The notes: a model not told the origin generated them from the sequence alone. DNA of 64,000 bases from Candidatus Methanomethylicaceae archaeon (GCA_015660995.1 JACTUC010000007.1:1-64000), one strand, 5' to 3'. Positions 5,907 through 53,566 are shown, counted from the first letter of the stretch. A program made the numbers and translations.

Positions 5907-6413
5907 ATGGCCGACATAACCTACCTGATACTCTCATCGTTTGCAATCATAATGCCTGCCTACATTGCAAATTCCATTCCAGTTCTGTCCAGAGGAAAGC
6001 ACCCTGTTGACCTTGGGAGGAACTTCACCGATGGTAAGCGCATCCTCGGCGACGGCAAGACCTTCGAGGGCACAGCGCTGGGGCTCTTCTTCGGCACGTT
6101 GGTCGGCACAGGATACACGCTCCTCACTGGCTCTCCCTCAGCCTACATCTTCTACTCCTTCATGCTTGCCTTGGGTGCCCTGGTCGGCGACATGCTGGGC
6201 GCCTTCATTAAGAGGAGAATGAACATCCCAAGGGGCGCATCAGCGCCAGTTCTGGACCAGCTGGATTTCGTTGTGGGCGCCCTGCTATTCCTTGCGCCTT
6301 TCTACCCAATATCCTGGGCGCAGGTCCTTATTGTCATTCTCGTTACCCCGCCTATCCATCTATTCACGAACTACTTGGCGTACCGCCTAAAGCTTAAGCC
6401 CAACCCTTGGTGA
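5907..6413 (+). CDS. carS: CDP-archaeol synthase
   Basis: CarS transfers CMP from CTP onto unsaturated archaetidic acid to give CDP-archaeol, the activated intermediate for archaeal polar lipids, in the membrane. The 168-residue protein has about four to five hydrophobic segments and the family signature GDGKTFEGTALG near residue 50, plus a basic KRRMNIPRG loop. It starts 2 bases after radB. Length is normal for the family. A fragment of a second, slightly different carS 3' end lies at 9627-9715. Confidence 0.93.
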   Translation: MADITYLILSSFAIIMPAYIANSIPVLSRGKHPVDLGRNFTDGKRILGDGKTFEGTALGLFFGTLVGTGYTLLTGSPSAYIFYSFMLALGALVGDMLGAFIKRRMNIPRGASAPVLDQLDFVVGALLFLAPFYPISWAQVLIVILVTPPIHLFTNYLAYRLKLKPNPW

Positions 6414-6541
6414 CACGGCTATTAATAATTCAGCTCAACCCATCTTCTCACAGCTATTCTTGAGCTCGTTGATGCCGATTTGATATGAATACAACTCATC
6501 ATCCTATCTAAAGAAGGATCTATGAACCTAAAAATGCGCAA

Positions 6542-7843
6542 TCATTCGAGTTCTTGCTTAGCCCGGTCGCGAGGAGAGAAGGGAATAACGAGGAGGCCGA
6601 CAAGGCATCCAGAAATTGCCACCATGGCTGTAGAGGTGACTGGCCCTACGGTCGCGCTGAAGAGAACCACCGTATATGGAGCTAGACCACCTAACGCTGC
6701 CCCTATGCCGTTGGCTGCAGCAAAGGTACTATATCTCACACTTGTTTTTGTGTTCTCGGTGATCCATGCAGGTAGAACTGACATCATCATCGGGCTGAAG
6801 AACCCTAGGGCAATACCCGCAAGAAGGGAGATCCCAACCATGCCTAAATTGAAGATAAATATTAATGGATAAAGGAGTATTGCATTCGTAAGAAAAGCCA
6901 ATGTAAGAAAAGTTCTCCTGCTTTTCCATTTATCCGATAAATAACCCCAAATTGGTGCTCCAACCATAACACCAAGGCTTGCTATCAAGACTATGGTTGC
7001 AATAGCATTCGGCGAATTAGGCGTGTAGAGTTTCAGGAAGCTTGGCAGGAACGTAATGCTTCCAAAAGTGAAGAAATTAACCGCAAACCATGCGACAATC
7101 ATGATTAAGAAGAATTTTGTGTTGCTTTTGTTTCTTAAGGCAGTCAGGAGAGGTATTTTTTCTACTTTAGGCGCAGCCTTGGTCTTCCATTCTACGCTCT
7201 CCGACACCTTCCACCTGATTATCAAGGTGATGAAAAAGGGGATGGCGCCAAACCAGAAGATAATCCTCCATCCGATTAGTGCAAATTGGGAACCAGGAGC
7301 CAGAGCTGATGCCAGGAAGATGGCGATGGACAATAGTACTTGGCTAAGGCCCGCTCCTATCCCAACAACAGAGCCGAATAAGCCCCTCCATTTGGAGGGC
7401 GAGTTCTCCTCGGTGAGAATCCAACCACCTGCCTGCTCACCGGATATGAAAAAACCTTGAAGTAGCCTTAGTGTAATCAAGGCCACTGTCGCAATTACCC
7501 CAACCTGTTGGTAAGTAGGCAAAAATCCCATCAAGATTGTGACCAATCCGATTCCTATGAGAGCGAGAAACCATACACCTTTCCTGCCTATTCTGTCTCC
7601 AAAATGACCGAAGAAGATGCCGCCAATGGGTCTAGAAACAAACGTCAGAGACACCGTTGCAAAGGATAGAAGGAGACTCGTTTCTGGGTTCGATGAGGGA
7701 AAAAAAAATTTCGCGAACAATGTGGAGGCAAAAATATAGGCTGTGAAATCAAATACCTGAAAACTGAATCCAAAGCATGACGATACTGCAATTTTCAGTG
7801 CGTTCGAGAATGTCTTCTCCTTGTCAATATCGATTGAACTCAT
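6542..7843 (-). CDS. MFS transporter, metabolite:H+ symporter (MHS) type, copy 1
   Basis: A twelve-segment major facilitator of the ShiA/ProP/KgtP group, which takes up organic acids or zwitterions with protons. The signature between helices 2 and 3 is RPIGGIFFGHFGDRIGRK, and the N-terminal half carries the conserved RLLQGFFISGEQAGG. Start ATG 7843 (MSSID) is preceded by GGAG at 5 bases; the frame extends 5 codons further to a TTG. It is transcribed away from ligase 1, with about 240 bases between them. Substrate unknown; the pairing with an acyl ligase suggests import of a carboxylate that the ligase then activates (inference). Confidence 0.88.
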   Translation of the reverse strand: MSSIDIDKEKTFSNALKIAVSSCFGFSFQVFDFTAYIFASTLFAKFFFPSSNPETSLLLSFATVSLTFVSRPIGGIFFGHFGDRIGRKGVWFLALIGIGLVTILMGFLPTYQQVGVIATVALITLRLLQGFFISGEQAGGWILTEENSPSKWRGLFGSVVGIGAGLSQVLLSIAIFLASALAPGSQFALIGWRIIFWFGAIPFFITLIIRWKVSESVEWKTKAAPKVEKIPLLTALRNKSNTKFFLIMIVAWFAVNFFTFGSITFLPSFLKLYTPNSPNAIATIVLIASLGVMVGAPIWGYLSDKWKSRRTFLTLAFLTNAILLYPLIFIFNLGMVGISLLAGIALGFFSPMMMSVLPAWITENTKTSVRYSTFAAANGIGAALGGLAPYTVVLFSATVGPVTSTAMVAISGCLVGLLVIPFSPRDRAKQELE

Positions 7844-8037
7844 GGAACTCCACGGCAATGCTAGCCATAAAGAAGAATATATCAGTTTCTAATTGTAGGG
7901 ATTTGGGCCATGCACCCACTGTCTGGAGCTGGCATTGGAAATCAGAGTTTAATCAGAAAAAAAGTAATATTTGGATAGGAAGAAAACGAAATATGCTATC
8001 CATTCCCATTTCTCAGTCGGTGTTTCTGGGGAAAGCA

Positions 8038-8052
8038 TAAAATATCCAATTA
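8038..8052 (+). promoter_or_regulatory. Conserved TATA-type promoter element of ligase 1
   Basis: TAAAATATCCAATTA lies 46 bases before the ligase start and is repeated exactly at 11331-11345, 45 bases before ligase 2. The AT-rich part fits an archaeal TATA box. A GGAGAT ribosome-binding site follows 8 bases before the ATG in copy 1 only. Confidence 0.55.
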
Positions 8053-8083
8053 GAAACACATTCTGTTCAGAAGGAGATCTTTT

Positions 8084-9613
8084 ATGCCCGAAAAATCTTC
8101 GCGACCACCTCTAACGATTCGCGATATGGTCTTCTTCAATGGGCAGGATCAAAATGCCATAGCAGTAGAGGACTTGGATGGCAGGAAAACAACCTATGGG
8201 CAATTGCATGACCATGTTCGCAATGTAGTGGGAATGCTCAACGGCGCCGGTTTCAGGAGGAACGACAGGATTGCTATCGCCCTTCCCTCCGGACCGGAGA
8301 TGGCAGTTGCGGTTGTAGCGCTCACCTGTGGTTTTACTACCATCCCCCTCAATCCAAACCAGATGGCATTGGAATATGATAGGTACCTGCAGGATGTGCA
8401 TGCCAGAGCCCTGCTCGTGGAAAAAGGATCCGAACTGGCAGTAAGGAAAGTCGCGAAGGATCTTGGGGTAGAGATCATAGAGCTCATCAAATCTGAAGAT
8501 AGCAGAGCTGGAATATTTTCCCTCGCCGGTTTCGACAGCATCGGTGAGCACGACCCAGAATTTGCAAAACCAGAGGATATTGCCTACATCCTTTCAACTT
8601 CTGGAACGACCTTCAAACCAAAGATAGTACTGTGGACGCACTCCATGATTTGTTGGGCGATCTACTACCATCAACTGAGCCTGCCGTTCACACCTTCAGA
8701 TAGAGCTCTAATATTGAACCCTCTCTTCCATGCTGCAGGTTTGAACAACATTTACAGACCGTTATACGCCGGAGGCACTATTATCTGCTCACCAGGATTT
8801 CAACGCTCAGAATTCTTCCGGTGGATCGACCAGACACGACCAACAATATATTCGGCGGTACCCGCAGTGCAGCAATCCATAATCGAGATGGCCAAGGAGA
8901 ACATGGACGTAATCTCCCGCTCAAGGCTCAGGCTCATACTGGCCGGAACCACCTCTCTACCATCCAAGACCTTTAAGGAATTGGAGGAGGTCTTCGGCGT
9001 GCCGGTCGTGGAGAGCTATGGTTCAACAGAGGCGATTGCAATAGGGAGAAGCTTACCCTCTATGGGGCATAGGCTTGGGGCTTTAAAGCCTGTGGCACCT
9101 GAGATCGAGATCATGGATGAAAATGGCAACGAACTGCGCCAGGGAGAGTTGGGCGAGATAGCCGTGAGAGGGCCCACCGTCTTCAAGGGCTACGAGGACG
9201 ACGCCGAGGCAAACAAGGCAGCCTTCGTGGACGGTTGGTTCAGGACCGGCGACCTGGGCTACTTCGACGGCGAGGGATACCTCCATGTGGCAGGGCGCGT
9301 GAAGGAGATGATAAACAAGGGAGGGGAGAAGGTGGCTCCCCAAGAAATCGACAACACATTGATGGAGCACCCGGCGGTAGCCGATGCTGTGACGTTCCCT
9401 GTACCTCATCAAACGCTGGGGGAAGATGTCAATACTGCCATAGTGCTTAGGGGAGGAGAGCAGGTCACGGAGGGCGAGCTACGGTCGTTCCTCTTCGACC
9501 GTCTCACATACTTCAAAGTACCCACTCGCATAATCTTCGTGAAGGCGATACCCAAGGGAGTAACGGGCAAGGCGAACCGATCGGATATGGCGCGCATGCT
9601 TGGTTTCTTGTGA
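8084..9613 (+). CDS. AMP-forming acyl-acid ligase (ANL superfamily), copy 1
   Basis: A 509-residue adenylate-forming enzyme. The P-loop motif is STSGTTFKPK near residue 172 (F replaces the usual G), the A5 motif is SYGSTEA near 310, TGDLGYF near 389, the hinge GRVKEMINKGGEK near 405, and the catalytic lysine PKGVTGK near 494. The GR.KE.I..GGEK form is that of acyl-CoA ligases rather than NRPS adenylation domains. A good ribosome-binding site (GGAGAT) precedes ATG 8084. It has no fused carrier domain; a separate carrier/thioesterase protein lies at 1-1052. Substrate unknown. It is divergent from transporter 1. Confidence 0.88.
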   Translation: MPEKSSRPPLTIRDMVFFNGQDQNAIAVEDLDGRKTTYGQLHDHVRNVVGMLNGAGFRRNDRIAIALPSGPEMAVAVVALTCGFTTIPLNPNQMALEYDRYLQDVHARALLVEKGSELAVRKVAKDLGVEIIELIKSEDSRAGIFSLAGFDSIGEHDPEFAKPEDIAYILSTSGTTFKPKIVLWTHSMICWAIYYHQLSLPFTPSDRALILNPLFHAAGLNNIYRPLYAGGTIICSPGFQRSEFFRWIDQTRPTIYSAVPAVQQSIIEMAKENMDVISRSRLRLILAGTTSLPSKTFKELEEVFGVPVVESYGSTEAIAIGRSLPSMGHRLGALKPVAPEIEIMDENGNELRQGELGEIAVRGPTVFKGYEDDAEANKAAFVDGWFRTGDLGYFDGEGYLHVAGRVKEMINKGGEKVAPQEIDNTLMEHPAVADAVTFPVPHQTLGEDVNTAIVLRGGEQVTEGELRSFLFDRLTYFKVPTRIIFVKAIPKGVTGKANRSDMARMLGFL

Positions 9614-9626
9614 AGGAATATTAAAG

Positions 9627-9715
9627 CGGACTCCTCATTGTCATTCTTGTCACCCCGCCCATCCCTCTATTTACGAACTACATGGCGTACCGCCTAAAGC
9701 TTAAGCCCAACCCAG
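9627..9715 (+). pseudogene. 3' fragment of a second carS
   Basis: The sequence aligns without gaps to the last 27 codons of carS (from about 6320 to 6410). The reading frame is kept but the stop is lost after Pro-Asn-Pro. Of seven differences in the best-aligned 80 bases, five are synonymous third-position changes; the two amino-acid changes are His to Pro and Leu to Met. It marks the left boundary of the second transporter/ligase unit. Confidence 0.85.
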
Positions 9716-9828
9716 ACCCATCTTCTAACAGCTCTTTTTGCTCTCGTCCATATTATCACCAGATTTGATATGTATGCAAATCATCATGCCATTTGAAAAT
9801 AAGGATCGATGGACCCCAAAACATGCAA

Positions 9829-11130
9829 TTATTCAAGTTCTTGCTTGACGCGGTCGCGAGGAGAGAAGGGAATAACGAGGGCGGCAACAAGACATCCGGA
9901 AATTGCCACCATGGCTGTAGAGGTGACTGGCCCTAAGGTCGCGCTTAGTAGAACCACGGTGTATGGGGCAAAGCCAGCGAATGCTGCTCCTATGCTATAC
10001 GCTGAAGCCATGGTACTATATCTCACACTTGTTTTTGTGTTCTCAGTGACCCATACTGGCAGAATTGCAATCAGCATAGGGGAGAAGAACCCTAGGATAA
10101 CGCTAGCAAGAAGAGAGATCCCAACCAAGCTCAAATTAAAGATAACAAATAATGGATAAAGGAGGACTGCATTCGTAAGAAAACCTAATGTTAGTAAAGT
10201 TCTCCTGCTTTTCCTTTTATCCGATAAATAACCCCAAATTGGGGCTCCAGCCATAACGCTAAGGTTTGCTATCAAGACTATGGTTGCAATATATGACGGG
10301 GGATTGGACGTGTAGAGTTTCAGGTAGCTTGGTAGGAACGTAATGCTTCCCAGAGCAAAAAAGTTTGACCCAAAAAATGCTATGCACATGATAAAGAAGA
10401 ACTTTCTTGTGCTTTTATTTTTCAAGGCAGTCAGAAGAGGTATTTTTTCTACCTTAGGCGCAGCTTTGATCTTCCATTCTACGCTCTCCGACACCCTCCA
10501 CCTGATTATTAAGGCGATGAGAAGGGGGATGGCGCCAAACCAGAAGATAATCCTCCAGCCAAATATTGCAAACTGGGAGCCAGGGGCGAAAGTTGATGCT
10601 AGGAAGATGGCGATTGACAACAATACCTGGCTAAGGCCAGCTCCTATCCCAACAACAGAGCCAAAGAAGGCTCTCCATTTGGCAGGCGAGTTCTCCTCGG
10701 TGAGAACCCAGCCACCCGCCTGCTCACCGGCTATGAAAAAGCCTTGAAGGAGCCTTAGTATGATCAAGGCTACTGTCGCAATCAGCCCCACCTGTTGGTA
10801 AGTCGGCAAAAATCCTAACAAGATTGAGACCAATCCGGTTCCAGCGAGGGCGAGAAACCAAACAACTTTCCTGCCTATTCTGTCTCCAAAATGGCCAAAG
10901 AAGATGCCACCAACTGGTCTAGAGAAGAACGTCAGAGACACTGTTAAAAGGGATAGAAGGAGACTCGCTTCATAACTCGATGAGGGAAAGAAAAAAGGCG
11001 CAAACAATGTGGAGGCAAAAATATAGGCGGTGAAGTCAAATAACTCAAAACCGTATCCAAACAATGATGTTGTTGCAATCTTTAATGCGTTCGAGAATGT
11101 CTTCTCCTTGTCAATATCGACTGAACTCAT
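9829..11130 (-). CDS. MFS transporter, MHS type, copy 2
   Basis: A close paralogue of the transporter at 6542-7843, with the same length after the ATG and the same signatures (RPVGGIFFGHFGDRIGRK, RLLQGFFIAGEQAGG). Start ATG 11130 (MSSVD) has the same GGAG box as copy 1; the frame is open for 24 more codons upstream because the intergenic sequence lacks stops there, but that extension is not conserved in copy 1. Differences from copy 1 are spread over the membrane helices, so substrate range may differ. It is divergent from ligase 2. Confidence 0.88.
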   Translation of the reverse strand: MSSVDIDKEKTFSNALKIATTSLFGYGFELFDFTAYIFASTLFAPFFFPSSSYEASLLLSLLTVSLTFFSRPVGGIFFGHFGDRIGRKVVWFLALAGTGLVSILLGFLPTYQQVGLIATVALIILRLLQGFFIAGEQAGGWVLTEENSPAKWRAFFGSVVGIGAGLSQVLLSIAIFLASTFAPGSQFAIFGWRIIFWFGAIPLLIALIIRWRVSESVEWKIKAAPKVEKIPLLTALKNKSTRKFFFIMCIAFFGSNFFALGSITFLPSYLKLYTSNPPSYIATIVLIANLSVMAGAPIWGYLSDKRKSRRTLLTLGFLTNAVLLYPLFVIFNLSLVGISLLASVILGFFSPMLIAILPVWVTENTKTSVRYSTMASAYSIGAAFAGFAPYTVVLLSATLGPVTSTAMVAISGCLVAALVIPFSPRDRVKQELE

Positions 11131-11330
11131 GGAACTCCACGGCAATGCTAGCAGTAAAGAAGAATATATCAGTTTCCAATTGTAGGGATTTGGGCCATGC
11201 ACTCAGTATCTGGAGCTGGCATTGGGAATCAGATCTTAATCAGAAGAAAGGTAATATTGAGATGTGACGCGATGAGGGAGAAACGTGTTGCTTAGTCCAT
11301 TCTCAGTCTGATTTATGAGTGCGGAATGCG

Positions 11331-11345
11331 TAAAATATCCAATTA
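11331..11345 (+). promoter_or_regulatory. Conserved TATA-type promoter element of ligase 2
   Basis: TAAAATATCCAATTA, identical to 8038-8052, lies 45 bases before ligase 2. The ribosome-binding site of this copy has decayed (GAAGGGTT instead of GAAGGAGAT), which may lower its translation. Confidence 0.55.
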
Positions 11346-11375
11346 AGAATACATTCTGTTTAGAAGGGTTCTTTT

Positions 11376-12905
11376 ATGCCCGAAAGACCTTCGCAACCAT
11401 CCTTGACGCTTCGTGAGATAGTCTTTTTCAATGGGCAGGATCAAGGTGCCACAGCAATAGAGGACTTGGACGGCAGGAAAACAACCTATGGGCAATTGCA
11501 TGATCACGTTAGCAATGTTGTTGGAATGCTCAACGGTGCTGGCTTCAGAAGGAATGATAGGATTGCTATTGCGCTTCCCAACGGGCCAGAGCTGGCAGTT
11601 GCAGTTGTCGCGCTCACCTGTGGTTTCACTACCATTCCACTCGATCCAAACGAGACAACATTCGAATATGAGAGGTACCTGCAGCGGGTTCGCGCCAAAG
11701 CTCTACTCGTGGAGAGAGAATCCGGACAACTAGCGAGGAAAGTTGCGAAGGATCTTGGGGTAGAGATCATAGAGCTCATCAAATCTGAAGATAGCAGAGC
11801 TGGAATGTTTTCCCTTCTCGGTTTCGATGGCATAGATAAGCGGGAGCCAGAATTTGCGAAACCAGAGGATATTGCCAATATCCTTTTAACCTCTGGAACG
11901 ACCTTCAGACCGAAGATAGTACCATGGACACATTCCATGATTTGCTGGGGAGCCTACTACAACCAACTGAGCTTGCCGTTAACACCTTCAGATAGATATC
12001 TAATAACGAACCCCTTCTTCCATGCTGGAGGTCTAAGCAACATTTCCAGGGCGTTATACGGCGGCGGTACTATTATCTGCTCACCAGGATTTCAACGCTC
12101 AGAATTCTTCCGGTGGATCGACCAAGTGCAACCAACCATATATTCGACGCCCCCTGCAGTGCAGCAATCCATAATCGAGATGGTCAAGGAGAACATAGGC
12201 GTAATCTCCCGCTCAAGGCTCAGGTTCATAAGAACCGGAATGACCTCCCTACCATCCAAGACCTTGAAGAAATTGGAGGAGGTCTTCGGCGTGCCCGTCG
12301 TGGAGCTTTATAGTTCGACCGAGGTAAATGGAATAGGGCAAAGCGCACTATGTATGGGGCATAGGCTTGGGGCTTTAAAGCCTGTGGCACCTGAGATCGA
12401 GATCATGGATGAAAATGGCAACGAACTGCACCAAGGAGAGTTGGGCGAGATAGCCGTGAGAGGACCCAACGTCTTCAAGGGCTACGAGGACGACCCGGAC
12501 GCAAACAAGGCTGCCTTCGTGGACGGCTGGTTCAGGACTGGTGACTTGGGCTACTTCGACGGCGAGGGCTATCTATACCTGAGAGGGAGGGTAAAGGAGA
12601 TGATAAATAAAGGAGGAATGAAGGTGGCACCGCAGGATGTCGAGGAAGCAATCATGGAGCACCCAGCAGTCGCAGAGGCGGTTGCCTTCCCGGTCCCGCA
12701 CCCAACCTTGGGGGAGGACGTGGCTGCTGCTGTTGTCCTCAAGAAGGGTCAGAATGTGAGCGAGAATGACCTGAGGGCGTCCCTCTTCGACCGCTTGGCC
12801 TACTTCAAGGTACCCACTCGCATAATCTTCGTTGAGAGCATACCCAAGGGAGCAACAGGGAAAGCGAACCGATTGGATATGGCGCAGACTCTTGCCCTCT
12901 TGTGA
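11376..12905 (+). CDS. AMP-forming acyl-acid ligase (ANL superfamily), copy 2
   Basis: Same length (509 residues) and architecture as copy 1. P-loop LTSGTTFRPK, A5 motif LYSSTEV, TGDLGYF, hinge GRVKEMINKGGMK, catalytic lysine PKGATGK. The segment around A5 (residues about 308-322) and the C-terminal lid (residues about 415-509) differ from copy 1 much more than the sequence between them, which is nearly identical in DNA. Changes close to the acyl pocket suggest a different substrate (inference). Start ATG 11376 matches copy 1. Confidence 0.88.
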   Translation: MPERPSQPSLTLREIVFFNGQDQGATAIEDLDGRKTTYGQLHDHVSNVVGMLNGAGFRRNDRIAIALPNGPELAVAVVALTCGFTTIPLDPNETTFEYERYLQRVRAKALLVERESGQLARKVAKDLGVEIIELIKSEDSRAGMFSLLGFDGIDKREPEFAKPEDIANILLTSGTTFRPKIVPWTHSMICWGAYYNQLSLPLTPSDRYLITNPFFHAGGLSNISRALYGGGTIICSPGFQRSEFFRWIDQVQPTIYSTPPAVQQSIIEMVKENIGVISRSRLRFIRTGMTSLPSKTLKKLEEVFGVPVVELYSSTEVNGIGQSALCMGHRLGALKPVAPEIEIMDENGNELHQGELGEIAVRGPNVFKGYEDDPDANKAAFVDGWFRTGDLGYFDGEGYLYLRGRVKEMINKGGMKVAPQDVEEAIMEHPAVAEAVAFPVPHPTLGEDVAAAVVLKKGQNVSENDLRASLFDRLAYFKVPTRIIFVESIPKGATGKANRLDMAQTLALL

Positions 12906-13101: not shown

Positions 13102-13500
13102 TCAATGAACCTTGATGTACGCGATCGCTTCGAGGAGGCCCAGCGCAAGCACAATCATCATGACTGCTACGAGATACCTTAACCTCGAGCCACTCAAGTC
13201 ATGGCTCTTCTTTAGAGCTCCTTCAAGCAGGATAAACCCCCCCACTCCGGTTACTGTGAGCACGAATACGACGAACAATTCTGTTGATGTCATGTTGCTT
13301 GTAGAGGCTGCTATGAAGCTCGACCCGCCGCTCGACGTCGAAACCAATGCCCCCGCCCCCTCAAGGACCACATATACGAAACCGCTTGTCAGCAATGTCA
13401 TGACTAGAACTACCACGATAGCCAATACTTCCCTCGTCGCAATCTTTTCATAGAGTTCCCTGATCCTTCGCAACACTGATACCATTGGCAGCACCGACAT
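13102..13500 (-). CDS. Small membrane protein, three predicted helices
   Basis: A 132-residue protein. Hydrophobic segments fall near residues 25-45, 72-92 and 108-128. Between the first two is a Ser/Thr/Gly-rich loop of about 25 residues with N-x-S/T sites, which probably lies outside the cell. ATG 13500 has GGGAG 9 bases upstream and an AT-rich GGATAATAATAA about 30 bases upstream. I do not recognise the family. It is divergent from coaBC. Confidence 0.65.
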   Translation of the reverse strand: MSVLPMVSVLRRIRELYEKIATREVLAIVVVLVMTLLTSGFVYVVLEGAGALVSTSSGGSSFIAASTSNMTSTELFVVFVLTVTGVGGFILLEGALKKSHDLSGSRLRYLVAVMMIVLALGLLEAIAYIKVH

Positions 13501-16669: not shown

Positions 16670-17560
16670 ATGAGCTTCCAGAAGATTTTCATAGTTGGCG
16701 CCGGCGCAATAGGCAGCTGTTACGGTGCCTTTTTATCAAGAGAATATGATGTGACCTTAATTGGAACTCGATCTCATGTAGATGCTATCAATTCGCATGG
16801 GCTAATGATTAATGGACACATTGAAGGCAAATTTCAGTTAAAGGCGGAGACTGCTATATCTGAAGTTCCTGCAAATTCGCTGATTGTTTTGACCACAAAG
16901 GCACAGGATGCGGTGAAAACAGCTACAAAGTTGAAACCATTGTTGAGAAATGACACGGTCTTCCTAGTCCTGCAGAATGGGTTAAAAATCAAAGAACTGA
17001 TCCAGGAAGCGATCGGAAACCAAGTTGAGGTTGTGAGAGGTTTGGTTTTGATGGCAGCGGAGTTCTTGGAACCCGGAAAAATTACATTTTGGGAAGGCCC
17101 CACAATAATAGAACGCACAAAAACCGGAGAGAAACTCCAAGCTTTGTTTAAAAAAAGTGGATTGAAAACTAGGCTTACTGCGGACATCAAAAAAGAAGAG
17201 TGGAGTAAATTAGTCGTCAACTGTGTCATAAATCCGTTAACCGCTGTCCTCAGAGTGAGAAACAATGAAATCGACGCACCCCGCCTCAAAGAAATTAGAC
17301 ACAGAATTGTCGAAGAATGCTCTCTTGTAGCAGAGGCGGAAGGAATACATTTCGAGCACGGCTTGGAAACTGAAATAGACTGCAAGATTAAAGGTTACAC
17401 CAACTACTCTTCAATGTATCAAGACGTCGTGAAGGGCAATAGGACCGAAATTAGCTTTTTAAACGCAAAAATCGTTGAACTAGGAAGGAAACATGGCATT
17501 AGAACACCGGTTAATGAAACATTGGTGGGTTTAATCAGATTCTTGGAGGCAAAGAAGTGA
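16670..17560 (+). CDS. panE: 2-dehydropantoate 2-reductase (ketopantoate reductase)
   Basis: PanE reduces ketopantoate to pantoate with NADPH. The N-terminal Rossmann motif is IFIVGAGAIGSCYGAF, and the catalytic Lys region is KKEEWSKLVVNCVINPLTA near residue 180. It has 296 residues, as usual. It follows the synthetase after 32 bases and overlaps panB by GTGA. The gene is visibly AT-richer than the three CoA genes upstream (frequent AAA, GAA and ATT codons), which hints at a different origin for the panE-panB pair. Confidence 0.92.
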   Translation: MSFQKIFIVGAGAIGSCYGAFLSREYDVTLIGTRSHVDAINSHGLMINGHIEGKFQLKAETAISEVPANSLIVLTTKAQDAVKTATKLKPLLRNDTVFLVLQNGLKIKELIQEAIGNQVEVVRGLVLMAAEFLEPGKITFWEGPTIIERTKTGEKLQALFKKSGLKTRLTADIKKEEWSKLVVNCVINPLTAVLRVRNNEIDAPRLKEIRHRIVEECSLVAEAEGIHFEHGLETEIDCKIKGYTNYSSMYQDVVKGNRTEISFLNAKIVELGRKHGIRTPVNETLVGLIRFLEAKK

Positions 17561-52075: not shown

Positions 52076-52633
52076 ATGGTCGACAAAAAGCGTCAGACCT
52101 TCGTGCTCGACACCTCCGCCATAATATATGGCTTCAATCCACGCCTCATAGACGGCGATCACTTCATCACGCCACGCGTCTCCATTGAACTCCTTGGTAA
52201 GAGGACCAAAGCAGCAACAGACCTTTCCCTGATTTCTGGACGGCTTAAGGTAAAGGCTCCCAATGAATACTACAAGGGCATAGTCAAAAGCAGGGCAGGC
52301 TCGACAGGTGATCTCTCGGTCCTTTCCGAGACCGACTTGGAGGTCGCAGCTCTGGCCCTCGAGCTGAAGATGCAAGGCTCTGACCCGGTTGTGGTCAGCG
52401 ATGACTACAGCCTCCAGAACCTTTGTAATATGCTCGGGCTAAACTTCCGGCCAATGATGACTAAGGGCATCTCCCAGGAGTTCTGGTGGTTCCTCTACTG
52501 CCCAGCCTGTGGCGCCACTTACCAGAAGTCTCTGAAATCGACCGTTTGTCAGGTCTGTGGCCACACTCTGAAGAGGAAGGTCTACAGCAAGAAGAATATA
52601 GATGAAACGGGTGCTGCTGCAAAACCCTCATAG
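52076..52633 (+). CDS. nob1: rRNA maturation endonuclease Nob1
   Basis: Nob1 cleaves the 3' end of small-subunit rRNA. The PIN domain has FVLDTSAIIYG (catalytic Asp) and VVVSDDYSLQNL (second acidic cluster); a zinc ribbon follows (YCPACGATY and CQVCGHTLKRK). It has 185 residues. The last 6 bases overlap the convergent lysR-type gene. Confidence 0.92.
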   Translation: MVDKKRQTFVLDTSAIIYGFNPRLIDGDHFITPRVSIELLGKRTKAATDLSLISGRLKVKAPNEYYKGIVKSRAGSTGDLSVLSETDLEVAALALELKMQGSDPVVVSDDYSLQNLCNMLGLNFRPMMTKGISQEFWWFLYCPACGATYQKSLKSTVCQVCGHTLKRKVYSKKNIDETGAAAKPS

Positions 52634-53566
52634 ATAAAGCATCTTTAGCATGCATGGTAGGTTCCCTTTGAACCTCTCAGACATCTTCTCGACATATCCC
52701 CAGAAACTGTTCAGCGCTTCGTCCATCGGCTCCCCGCCTCTCTTTATGTATATGGAATATCGCCCCCCGGTTGCCCCCTCTGGGTTGACAATCCCTACCA
52801 GCCTGGCCCGCTCGGCTTTCTTGGCAATGATCTCGGAGCACAGGCTCAGCCCCAGCCCCTCGGACACTGAGGCGATGACGCTAGCAGGATCCGGAAGTAG
52901 CATCTTTACCTCGAGGCTCTTCGCCTTCACGCCGTTTGAGATGAGAAAATCTTCCACTACCTCCGCGAACTCGTGATCGGGCTCATACATGATCAGCGGG
53001 TGCTTTAGGATCTCGCGCAACTTCAGCCCCTCCCTTCCCAACAGCTCGTGCTTGGGGGGCGCAATTACGACGAGCCTGTCTTTTGCTATCTCGACTTCAT
53101 CAGAACGTGGCTCCCCGCGCTGCTTGATGTATGAGATCAAGTCCAGTTCACCCTTCTCCAGCTTCTCAAGCATGGCATGTGGTTTCAGGATCTCGAGGTC
53201 AAATTTCATATTAGGGTTGGCCATCTTGTAATTGCTTATCACGCAAGGTAGTATGTACTCGCCAGCTATCATCGAGCCACCTATCCTTACGGTGCGTTCC
53301 GGTGTAGGCGCTTCTGAAGGTCTGGTACTTGAGAGAAGGCCGACTACTGCCCTTGCGATCTCGACTATCTTCTCGCCATCTTTGGTCAGGAATACGCCCC
53401 TGTTTGTCCTCGTGAAGATCTTTGTCTGGAAATAGCCTTCCAGCTTGTTGATGCGATTGAGCAGGTTGACGGGGTTCGTCTGCAGGCCCTTTGCTGCGCT
53501 GCTGAAGCTGTTCGTCTTGGCAACTTCAAGGAGCGCCAAAAAGTCAGATACCCTGGGATCTCCCAT
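52628..53566 (-). CDS. LysR-family transcriptional regulator
   Basis: A 312-residue regulator. The N-terminal helix-turn-helix is FLALLEVAKTNSFSSAAKGL followed by NRINKLEGYFQTKIFTR; the substrate-binding domain starts at about residue 90 (VRIGGSMIAGEYILP). The type is bacterial in origin and less common in archaea. It converges on nob1; upstream is a 210-base gap without a convincing gene. The inducer is unknown. Confidence 0.9.
   Translation of the reverse strand: MGDPRVSDFLALLEVAKTNSFSSAAKGLQTNPVNLLNRINKLEGYFQTKIFTRTNRGVFLTKDGEKIVEIARAVVGLLSSTRPSEAPTPERTVRIGGSMIAGEYILPCVISNYKMANPNMKFDLEILKPHAMLEKLEKGELDLISYIKQRGEPRSDEVEIAKDRLVVIAPPKHELLGREGLKLREILKHPLIMYEPDHEFAEVVEDFLISNGVKAKSLEVKMLLPDPASVIASVSEGLGLSLCSEIIAKKAERARLVGIVNPEGATGGRYSIYIKRGGEPMDEALNSFWGYVEKMSERFKGNLPCMLKMLYL

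Follow-up and report, generated by a model that had tools for sequence, protein, structure and literature searches.

Two diverged tandem units of an MHS-type transporter and an AMP-forming ligase in a Candidatus Methanomethylicaceae archaeon: a candidate system for carboxylic acid scavenging

Organization of the tandem locus

Two adjacent gene units, each composed of a metabolite/H+ symporter (MHS)-type MFS transporter gene and a divergently oriented gene for an AMP-forming acyl ligase (ANL), were analyzed in the genome of a Candidatus Methanomethylicaceae archaeon. The window, a stretch of 64,000 nucleotides (GCA_015660995.1, JACTUC010000007.1:1-64000), is part of a 100-kb contig; the archaeal genome comprises 1.63 Mb in 28 contigs and is 98% complete. 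Unit 1 occupies positions 6325-9613 and unit 2 positions 9632-12905, with a repeat period of ~3.3 kb and a distance of 3292 bp between the starts of the two ligase genes. Both units sit between carS (5907-6413), the gene for CDP-archaeol synthase, and an OST3/OST6-like gene (13102-13500). An earlier reading of the window made from the sequence alone had described two divergent pairs of an MHS transporter and an AMP-forming ligase side by side, and four open reading frames (ORFs) were found as described. The same reading had the units alike in gene order and layout, about 3.3 kb long and yet diverged in sequence. This is the case: in gapless alignments the two transporters share 80% and the two ligases 78% of their residues, and the DNA of the units aligns over the full length, including the intergenic parts, with ~83% identity.

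In unit 1, the transporter MFS1 is encoded on the minus strand at 6542-7843, with an ATG start at 7843 and an alternative TTG at 7858, and the ligase Lig1 (509 amino acids) on the plus strand at 8084-9613. In unit 2, the transporter MFS2 lies at 9829-11130 on the minus strand, in an ORF open to 11202, and the ligase Lig2, likewise of 509 amino acids, at 11376-12905 on the plus strand. The four genes were assigned from their ORFs and from Pfam and NCBIfam profiles; MFS1 is of the MHS type (2.A.1.6-like), and the Pfam domains MFS_1/Sugar_tr, AMP-binding and AMP-binding_C all scored above the Pfam cut-offs. A search of the region against Rfam gave no match, and a scan of it for sigma-70 promoters and terminators, using models unsuited to archaea, stayed near chance level.

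The divergent intergenic regions span 7844-8083 in unit 1 and 11131-11375 in unit 2. Motifs of the form CAATTAGAAAC were found in the former at 7885-7895 (minus strand) and 8047-8057 (plus strand), on the transporter side and the ligase side, respectively, and in the latter at 11172-11182 (minus strand). These are the only three exact occurrences of the 11-mer CAATTRGAAAC in the 64 kb (0.07 expected), and all of them fall in the two divergent intergenic regions. The 7885 and 11172 sites are a pair that was copied along with the tandem, and on the ligase side of unit 2 the motif is present in degenerate form only. The claim of the sequence-only reading that the units have the same promoter motifs is borne out by the three exact sites, with these two qualifications. 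The distribution of the 11-mer hints that it might be a shared operator.

Divergence of the copies and origin of the tandem

Purifying selection acts on both gene pairs, with a ratio of nonsynonymous to synonymous divergence (dN/dS) of 0.27 for the ligases and 0.30 for the transporters. Synonymous divergence (dS) is 0.38 for the transporter pair and 0.48 for the ligase pair, and the latter is a mosaic: dS is 0.05 in codons 331-360 and 0.11 in codons 121-150, whereas codons 391-480 are saturated. Three tracts identical between Lig1 and Lig2, have lengths of 62 bp (8453-8514 in Lig1, a conversion-like tract), 56 bp (8777-8832) and 77 bp (9061-9137), and the longest of them exceeds the longest identical run in every one of 2000 codon-order shuffles. 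No comparable dS mosaic was seen in the transporter pair. To judge from this mosaic, the ligases appear to have been locally homogenized by gene conversion. Codons 391-480 of Lig1 (9254-9523) are saturated at synonymous sites relative to Lig2 though adjoining stretches are nearly identical; a swap of the C-terminal ligase domain from another paralogue was considered as the source of this divergent piece, but no paralogue was clearly closer to either copy there.

The repeat starts inside the 3' end of carS, to the left of the transporter gene: the segment 6325-6406 is found again at 9632-9713, and the two share 75 of 82 bases. In a whole-genome search with CarS, the second match was this remnant at the unit junction (9628-9714, plus strand; 86% amino acid identity over residues 139-167, E 3.9e-10). 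The junction sequence places the left breakpoint of the tandem inside carS. An assembly artefact was rejected in view of the ~17% divergence of the units together with the junction scar within a 100-kb contig. The sequence-only reading had named uniqueness to this assembly, through collapse or misassembly, as its refutation; this transporter-ligase pair was indeed found in no other sampled genome, but collapse or misassembly is very unlikely because the units have diverged and the carS scar is present.

The carS gene itself (plus strand; Pfam CarS-like, NCBIfam NF003114 above cut-off) and the OST3/OST6-like gene (minus strand, encoding a membrane protein assigned by Pfam) are neighbors in most relatives. 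Among 13 genomes of the same family and order, the OST-like gene directly follows carS in 10, and coaBC lies less than 1 kb away in 11; neither an MFS nor a ligase gene stands beside carS in any of the 13. Since carS in the relatives lacks such neighbors, the units are an insertion into the carS-OST interval.

The remnant differs from carS by a dS of 0.29 and a dN of only 0.05. A neutral relic dating from the split of the units would be expected to hold 9-14 amino-acid-changing differences, and three were observed (P between 0.028 and 0.0004 according to the dS chosen, in a test on 27 codons). At one position where CarS of all 13 relatives has His, the remnant has Pro, as would be expected after coding ceased. 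The small number of amino acid changes implies either that the tail now seen as the remnant diverged within a working carS, so that two diverged versions of the locus would have recombined, or that it was recently converted. The proposed sequence of events starts with the arrival of a transporter-ligase unit between carS and the OST gene. The tandem would then have formed either by duplication in place or through recombination that joined two locus versions diverged beforehand, and gene conversion would afterwards have homogenized parts of the ligases.

Transporter relatives, ligase family and acyl pocket

For both transporters the best NCBIfam match is TIGR00883 (MHS), aligned over the full length with scores of 224 and 215 bits (E-values 2.3e-66 and 1.4e-63), against a curated cut-off of 443 that the archaeal relatives of these transporters also fail to reach. 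AlphaFold predicts MFS1 with confidence as an all-helical MFS fold (pLDDT 90), which matches many MFS structures and singles out no substrate class. The two copies are the only ones in the genome. Their closest relatives are archaeal and were found in eight other genomes of the phylum (40-48% identity); relatives from a plasmid search were bacterial and only ~30-34% identical. In seven of these eight genomes, several of which belong to one genus so that the independent count is smaller, an AMP-forming ligase immediately adjoins the transporter, although in one of the seven this ligase is split by an inserted transposon-like gene. The adjoining ligases are of another subfamily (acetate/MbcS/medium-chain type). 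Seven of the eight genomes also have a CoA-transferase III-like gene nearby (confirmed by profile in loci L202 and L209, and by N-terminal sequence in the others).

Lig1 and Lig2 belong to the ANL superfamily by their AMP-binding and AMP-binding_C domains, the catalytic Lys and the core motifs A3 (TSGTT..PK), A5 (Y-STE), A7 (GWFRTGDLG), A8 (GR.KEMINKGG) and A10 (TGK), among which Lig2 shows the variants YSSTE and GGM. Three further close paralogues are encoded on contigs C8 (54% identity), C19 (50%) and C3 (43%). In a quick tree with some long branches, the five paralogues group together (SH-aLRT 93; 100 for the four stand-alone ones) within bacterial ligases, next to a clade that holds plant AAE3. 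The nearest named relatives are bacterial (Caldovatus and Roseomonas, 47%), and 397 further genomes sampled from the phylum yielded no comparable ligase (E below 1e-75). The C8 and C19 paralogues (loci L072 and L073) are stand-alone genes with no transporter neighbors, each ~2 kb from a contig end.

The model of Lig1 is closest in fold to the oxalyl-CoA synthetase structure 5ie3 (TM 0.86). The C3 paralogue, AtAAE3 and 19 bacterial relatives share 97 invariant alignment columns, of which Lig1 changes 23 and Lig2 26. Many of the changed columns lie around the acyl pocket: H218, W255, T261, H263, S287, S289, M314 and H319 in Lig1 numbering, with R286 changed in Lig1 only. At the AtAAE3 positions His216, Arg286, Ser287, Ser289 and His319, which are invariant in the 19 bacterial relatives and AtAAE3, Lig1 has A218, L286, A287, T289 and A319, and Lig2 has G218, R286, T287, M289 and G319. 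Ser289 and His319 presumably contact oxalate in 5ie3. Neither enzyme retains the set of pocket residues of oxalyl-CoA synthetases (AAE3), and membership in that group was ruled out on these residues. By the alignment, the oxalyl-type pocket is lost in both ligases, by different routes. A small acid without a second carboxylate is a more likely substrate than oxalate.

The two ligases also differ from each other around the predicted pocket. Within the N-domain, differences affect 21 of 65 residues (32%) in the pocket region and 56 of 335 (17%) elsewhere (Fisher p=0.006); the pocket segments were picked from motif positions after the alignment was seen, which makes this enrichment supportive and not conclusive. 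The corresponding dN/dS values are 0.62 and 0.24. This pattern is consistent with different substrates for Lig1 and Lig2. The suggestion of the sequence-only reading that two diverged copies handle two related substrates thereby gains indirect support from pocket-centred change under an overall dN/dS of 0.27 and 0.30.

Proposed function and rival explanations

We propose that each unit serves to scavenge a carboxylic acid, a reading that we consider somewhat probable. The MHS-type transporter would import the acid, presumably by proton symport; the ANL ligase would adenylate it with ATP to an acyl-AMP and move the acyl group to CoA, which would trap the acid in the cell and commit it to acyl-CoA metabolism. 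The two units would serve two related acids. We infer here the direction of transport, the proton coupling, the use of CoA as acceptor, a joint regulation of both genes from the intergenic region between them, and a different substrate for each unit. An import-and-activate module is supported by the AMP-forming ligases adjoining MHS relatives in seven of the eight closest genomes, and to this extent the uptake-and-activate module of the sequence-only reading stands, its interpretation as a whole being partly supported. As to acyl-CoA metabolism in this genome, biotin-dependent acyl-CoA carboxylase-like genes lie beside its only CoA-transferase III gene. This cluster on contig C24 (L214:3618-8654) holds biotin carboxylase-, biotin carboxyl carrier protein-, acyl-CoA carboxylase-beta- and biotin ligase-like genes, the neighbors of the CoA-transferase having been named by eye.

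Several observations weigh against the proposed scavenging function. The units contain no downstream catabolic gene, and the direction of transport cannot be read from sequence. The bacterial relatives of the ligases neighbor genes of the ApbA/PanE (ketopantoate-reductase) family and, in two loci, malate synthase, not MHS genes, and the clade of the ligases includes the carrier-fused enzyme of a nonribosomal peptide synthetase (NRPS) cluster. The pocket enrichment is modest, and the test of nonsynonymous against synonymous changes alone gives p=0.075. A PanE-family gene is present in the window at 16670-17560, within a coenzyme A gene cluster; because of this setting, and because a similar gene occupies the same place in the relative L191, it was not counted as a partner of the ligases.

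At the edge of the contig, a truncated gene at positions 1-1052 of the window (minus strand) encodes a PP-binding (GGDSL) domain and a thioesterase, an NRPS-like T-TE didomain that is unusual for an archaeon. The NRPS cluster on contig C3 (L074:5413-11283), beside glycosyltransferase and sugar-nucleotide genes, encodes a ligase-carrier fusion followed by a C-A-T-TE protein. A phosphopantetheinyl transferase (PF01648; L217:9635-10396, C19:63706-64014, minus strand), beside glycosyltransferase-like genes, could activate the T-TE and C3 carriers. Elsewhere in the window, a LysR-type regulator with a substrate-binding domain, of a mainly bacterial type, is encoded at 52628-53566 (minus strand).

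The main alternative is that the ligases load acyl groups onto stand-alone NRPS-like carrier domains instead of CoA, with the transporter importing a precursor or exporting the product. The T-TE gene lies 5 kb from the units, the fused ligase of the C3 cluster groups with Lig1 and Lig2, and the phosphopantetheinyl transferase is absent from all four archaeal control genomes. As a precedent from plants, the AAE3-type ligase LsAAE3 has been repurposed to make amides from acyl-AMP (PMC9935904). Nevertheless, the T-TE gene is set apart from the units by four genes, among them radB and carS, both conserved neighbors in relatives; the units were doubled without any carrier; and Pfam finds a PP-binding domain in the C3 paralogue and none in Lig1 or Lig2, which therefore lack the make-up of an NRPS loading module. 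Moreover, the oxalyl-type pocket, lost in Lig1 and Lig2, is still present in the carrier-fused paralogue, and the relatives of the transporter pair with acyl-CoA synthetases of the acetate/medium-chain type. Carrier loading is accordingly regarded as unlikely. The transporter and the ligase may also have landed together while doing unrelated jobs: an MHS-like gene was found within 8 kb in only one distant case among 80 loci with related ligases, and the ligase is bacterial-like while the transporter is archaeal-like. Such an adjacency without metabolic meaning is quite improbable in view of the repeated pairing of MHS relatives with AMP-forming ligases, the layout and intergenic region kept in both copies, and the purifying selection on both genes.

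Uptake of oxalate, or another small dicarboxylate, with synthesis of oxalyl-CoA as by AAE3 and Pcs60, agrees with the closest solved sequences and folds and with the malate synthase genes beside alphaproteobacterial relatives of the ligases. Oxalate is unlikely, however, because the pocket positions equivalent to His216, Ser287, Ser289 and His319 of AtAAE3, kept even in the carrier-fused paralogue, are replaced in both ligases, and Arg286 is lost in Lig1. In addition, the single CoA-transferase III gene of the genome is away from the locus, and the genome has no member of the HpcH/HpaI family. We consider this alternative very improbable.

For the evolution of the scavenging modules, a possible though doubtful scenario is that a ligase lineage of bacterial derivation took the place that an acetate-type ligase usually holds next to an archaeal MHS transporter, that the pair was doubled and began to split into two substrate specificities, and that the acyl pockets are held apart by selection while conversion preserves the likeness of other parts of the enzyme. 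The doubling may have passed through recombination of diverged locus versions, which the deficit of amino acid changes in the carS remnant makes possible. The module type itself is ordinary in metabolism. As a small natural experiment in the gain of a new nutrient route by a microbe, the locus would show a transporter and an activating enzyme that differ in origin, were paired and doubled, and apparently diverged at the substrate pocket. The function of one group of archaeal MHS transporters also becomes testable through their link to acyl-CoA ligases across several lineages.

Among known systems, the tandem is a contiguous repeat of a gene unit by its whole-unit DNA alignment and its carS junction scar. 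The transporters resemble the MHS family (TIGR00883; ShiA, ProP, KgtP, TcuC) in best profile match, full-length alignment and helical MFS model, but score about half the curated cut-off, too low for the assignment of a substrate class, and are most closely related to archaeal MHS proteins encoded beside ligases. With the archaeal clusters of an MHS gene, an acetate/MbcS-like AMP ligase and CoA-transferase III (L202-L206, L208, L209) the units share the adjacency of transporter and AMP-forming ligase; those clusters differ in their non-orthologous ligase subfamily, varied orientation and lack of a tandem copy. The alphaproteobacterial AMP-binding ligases (Dongia, a Rhodospirillum metagenome-assembled genome, SAR116; closest Caldovatus and Roseomonas) are up to 47% identical and of the same length, but have other gene partners, often ApbA/PanE-family reductases, and keep the oxalyl-type pocket. 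Finally, the oxalyl-CoA synthetases (AtAAE3, 5ie0/5ie3; LsAAE3, 6qjz; Pcs60, 8aff) are the closest solved sequences and folds and share the ANL core motifs, whereas Lig1 and Lig2 have other residues where the oxalyl-type relatives show invariant His and Ser in the acyl pocket.

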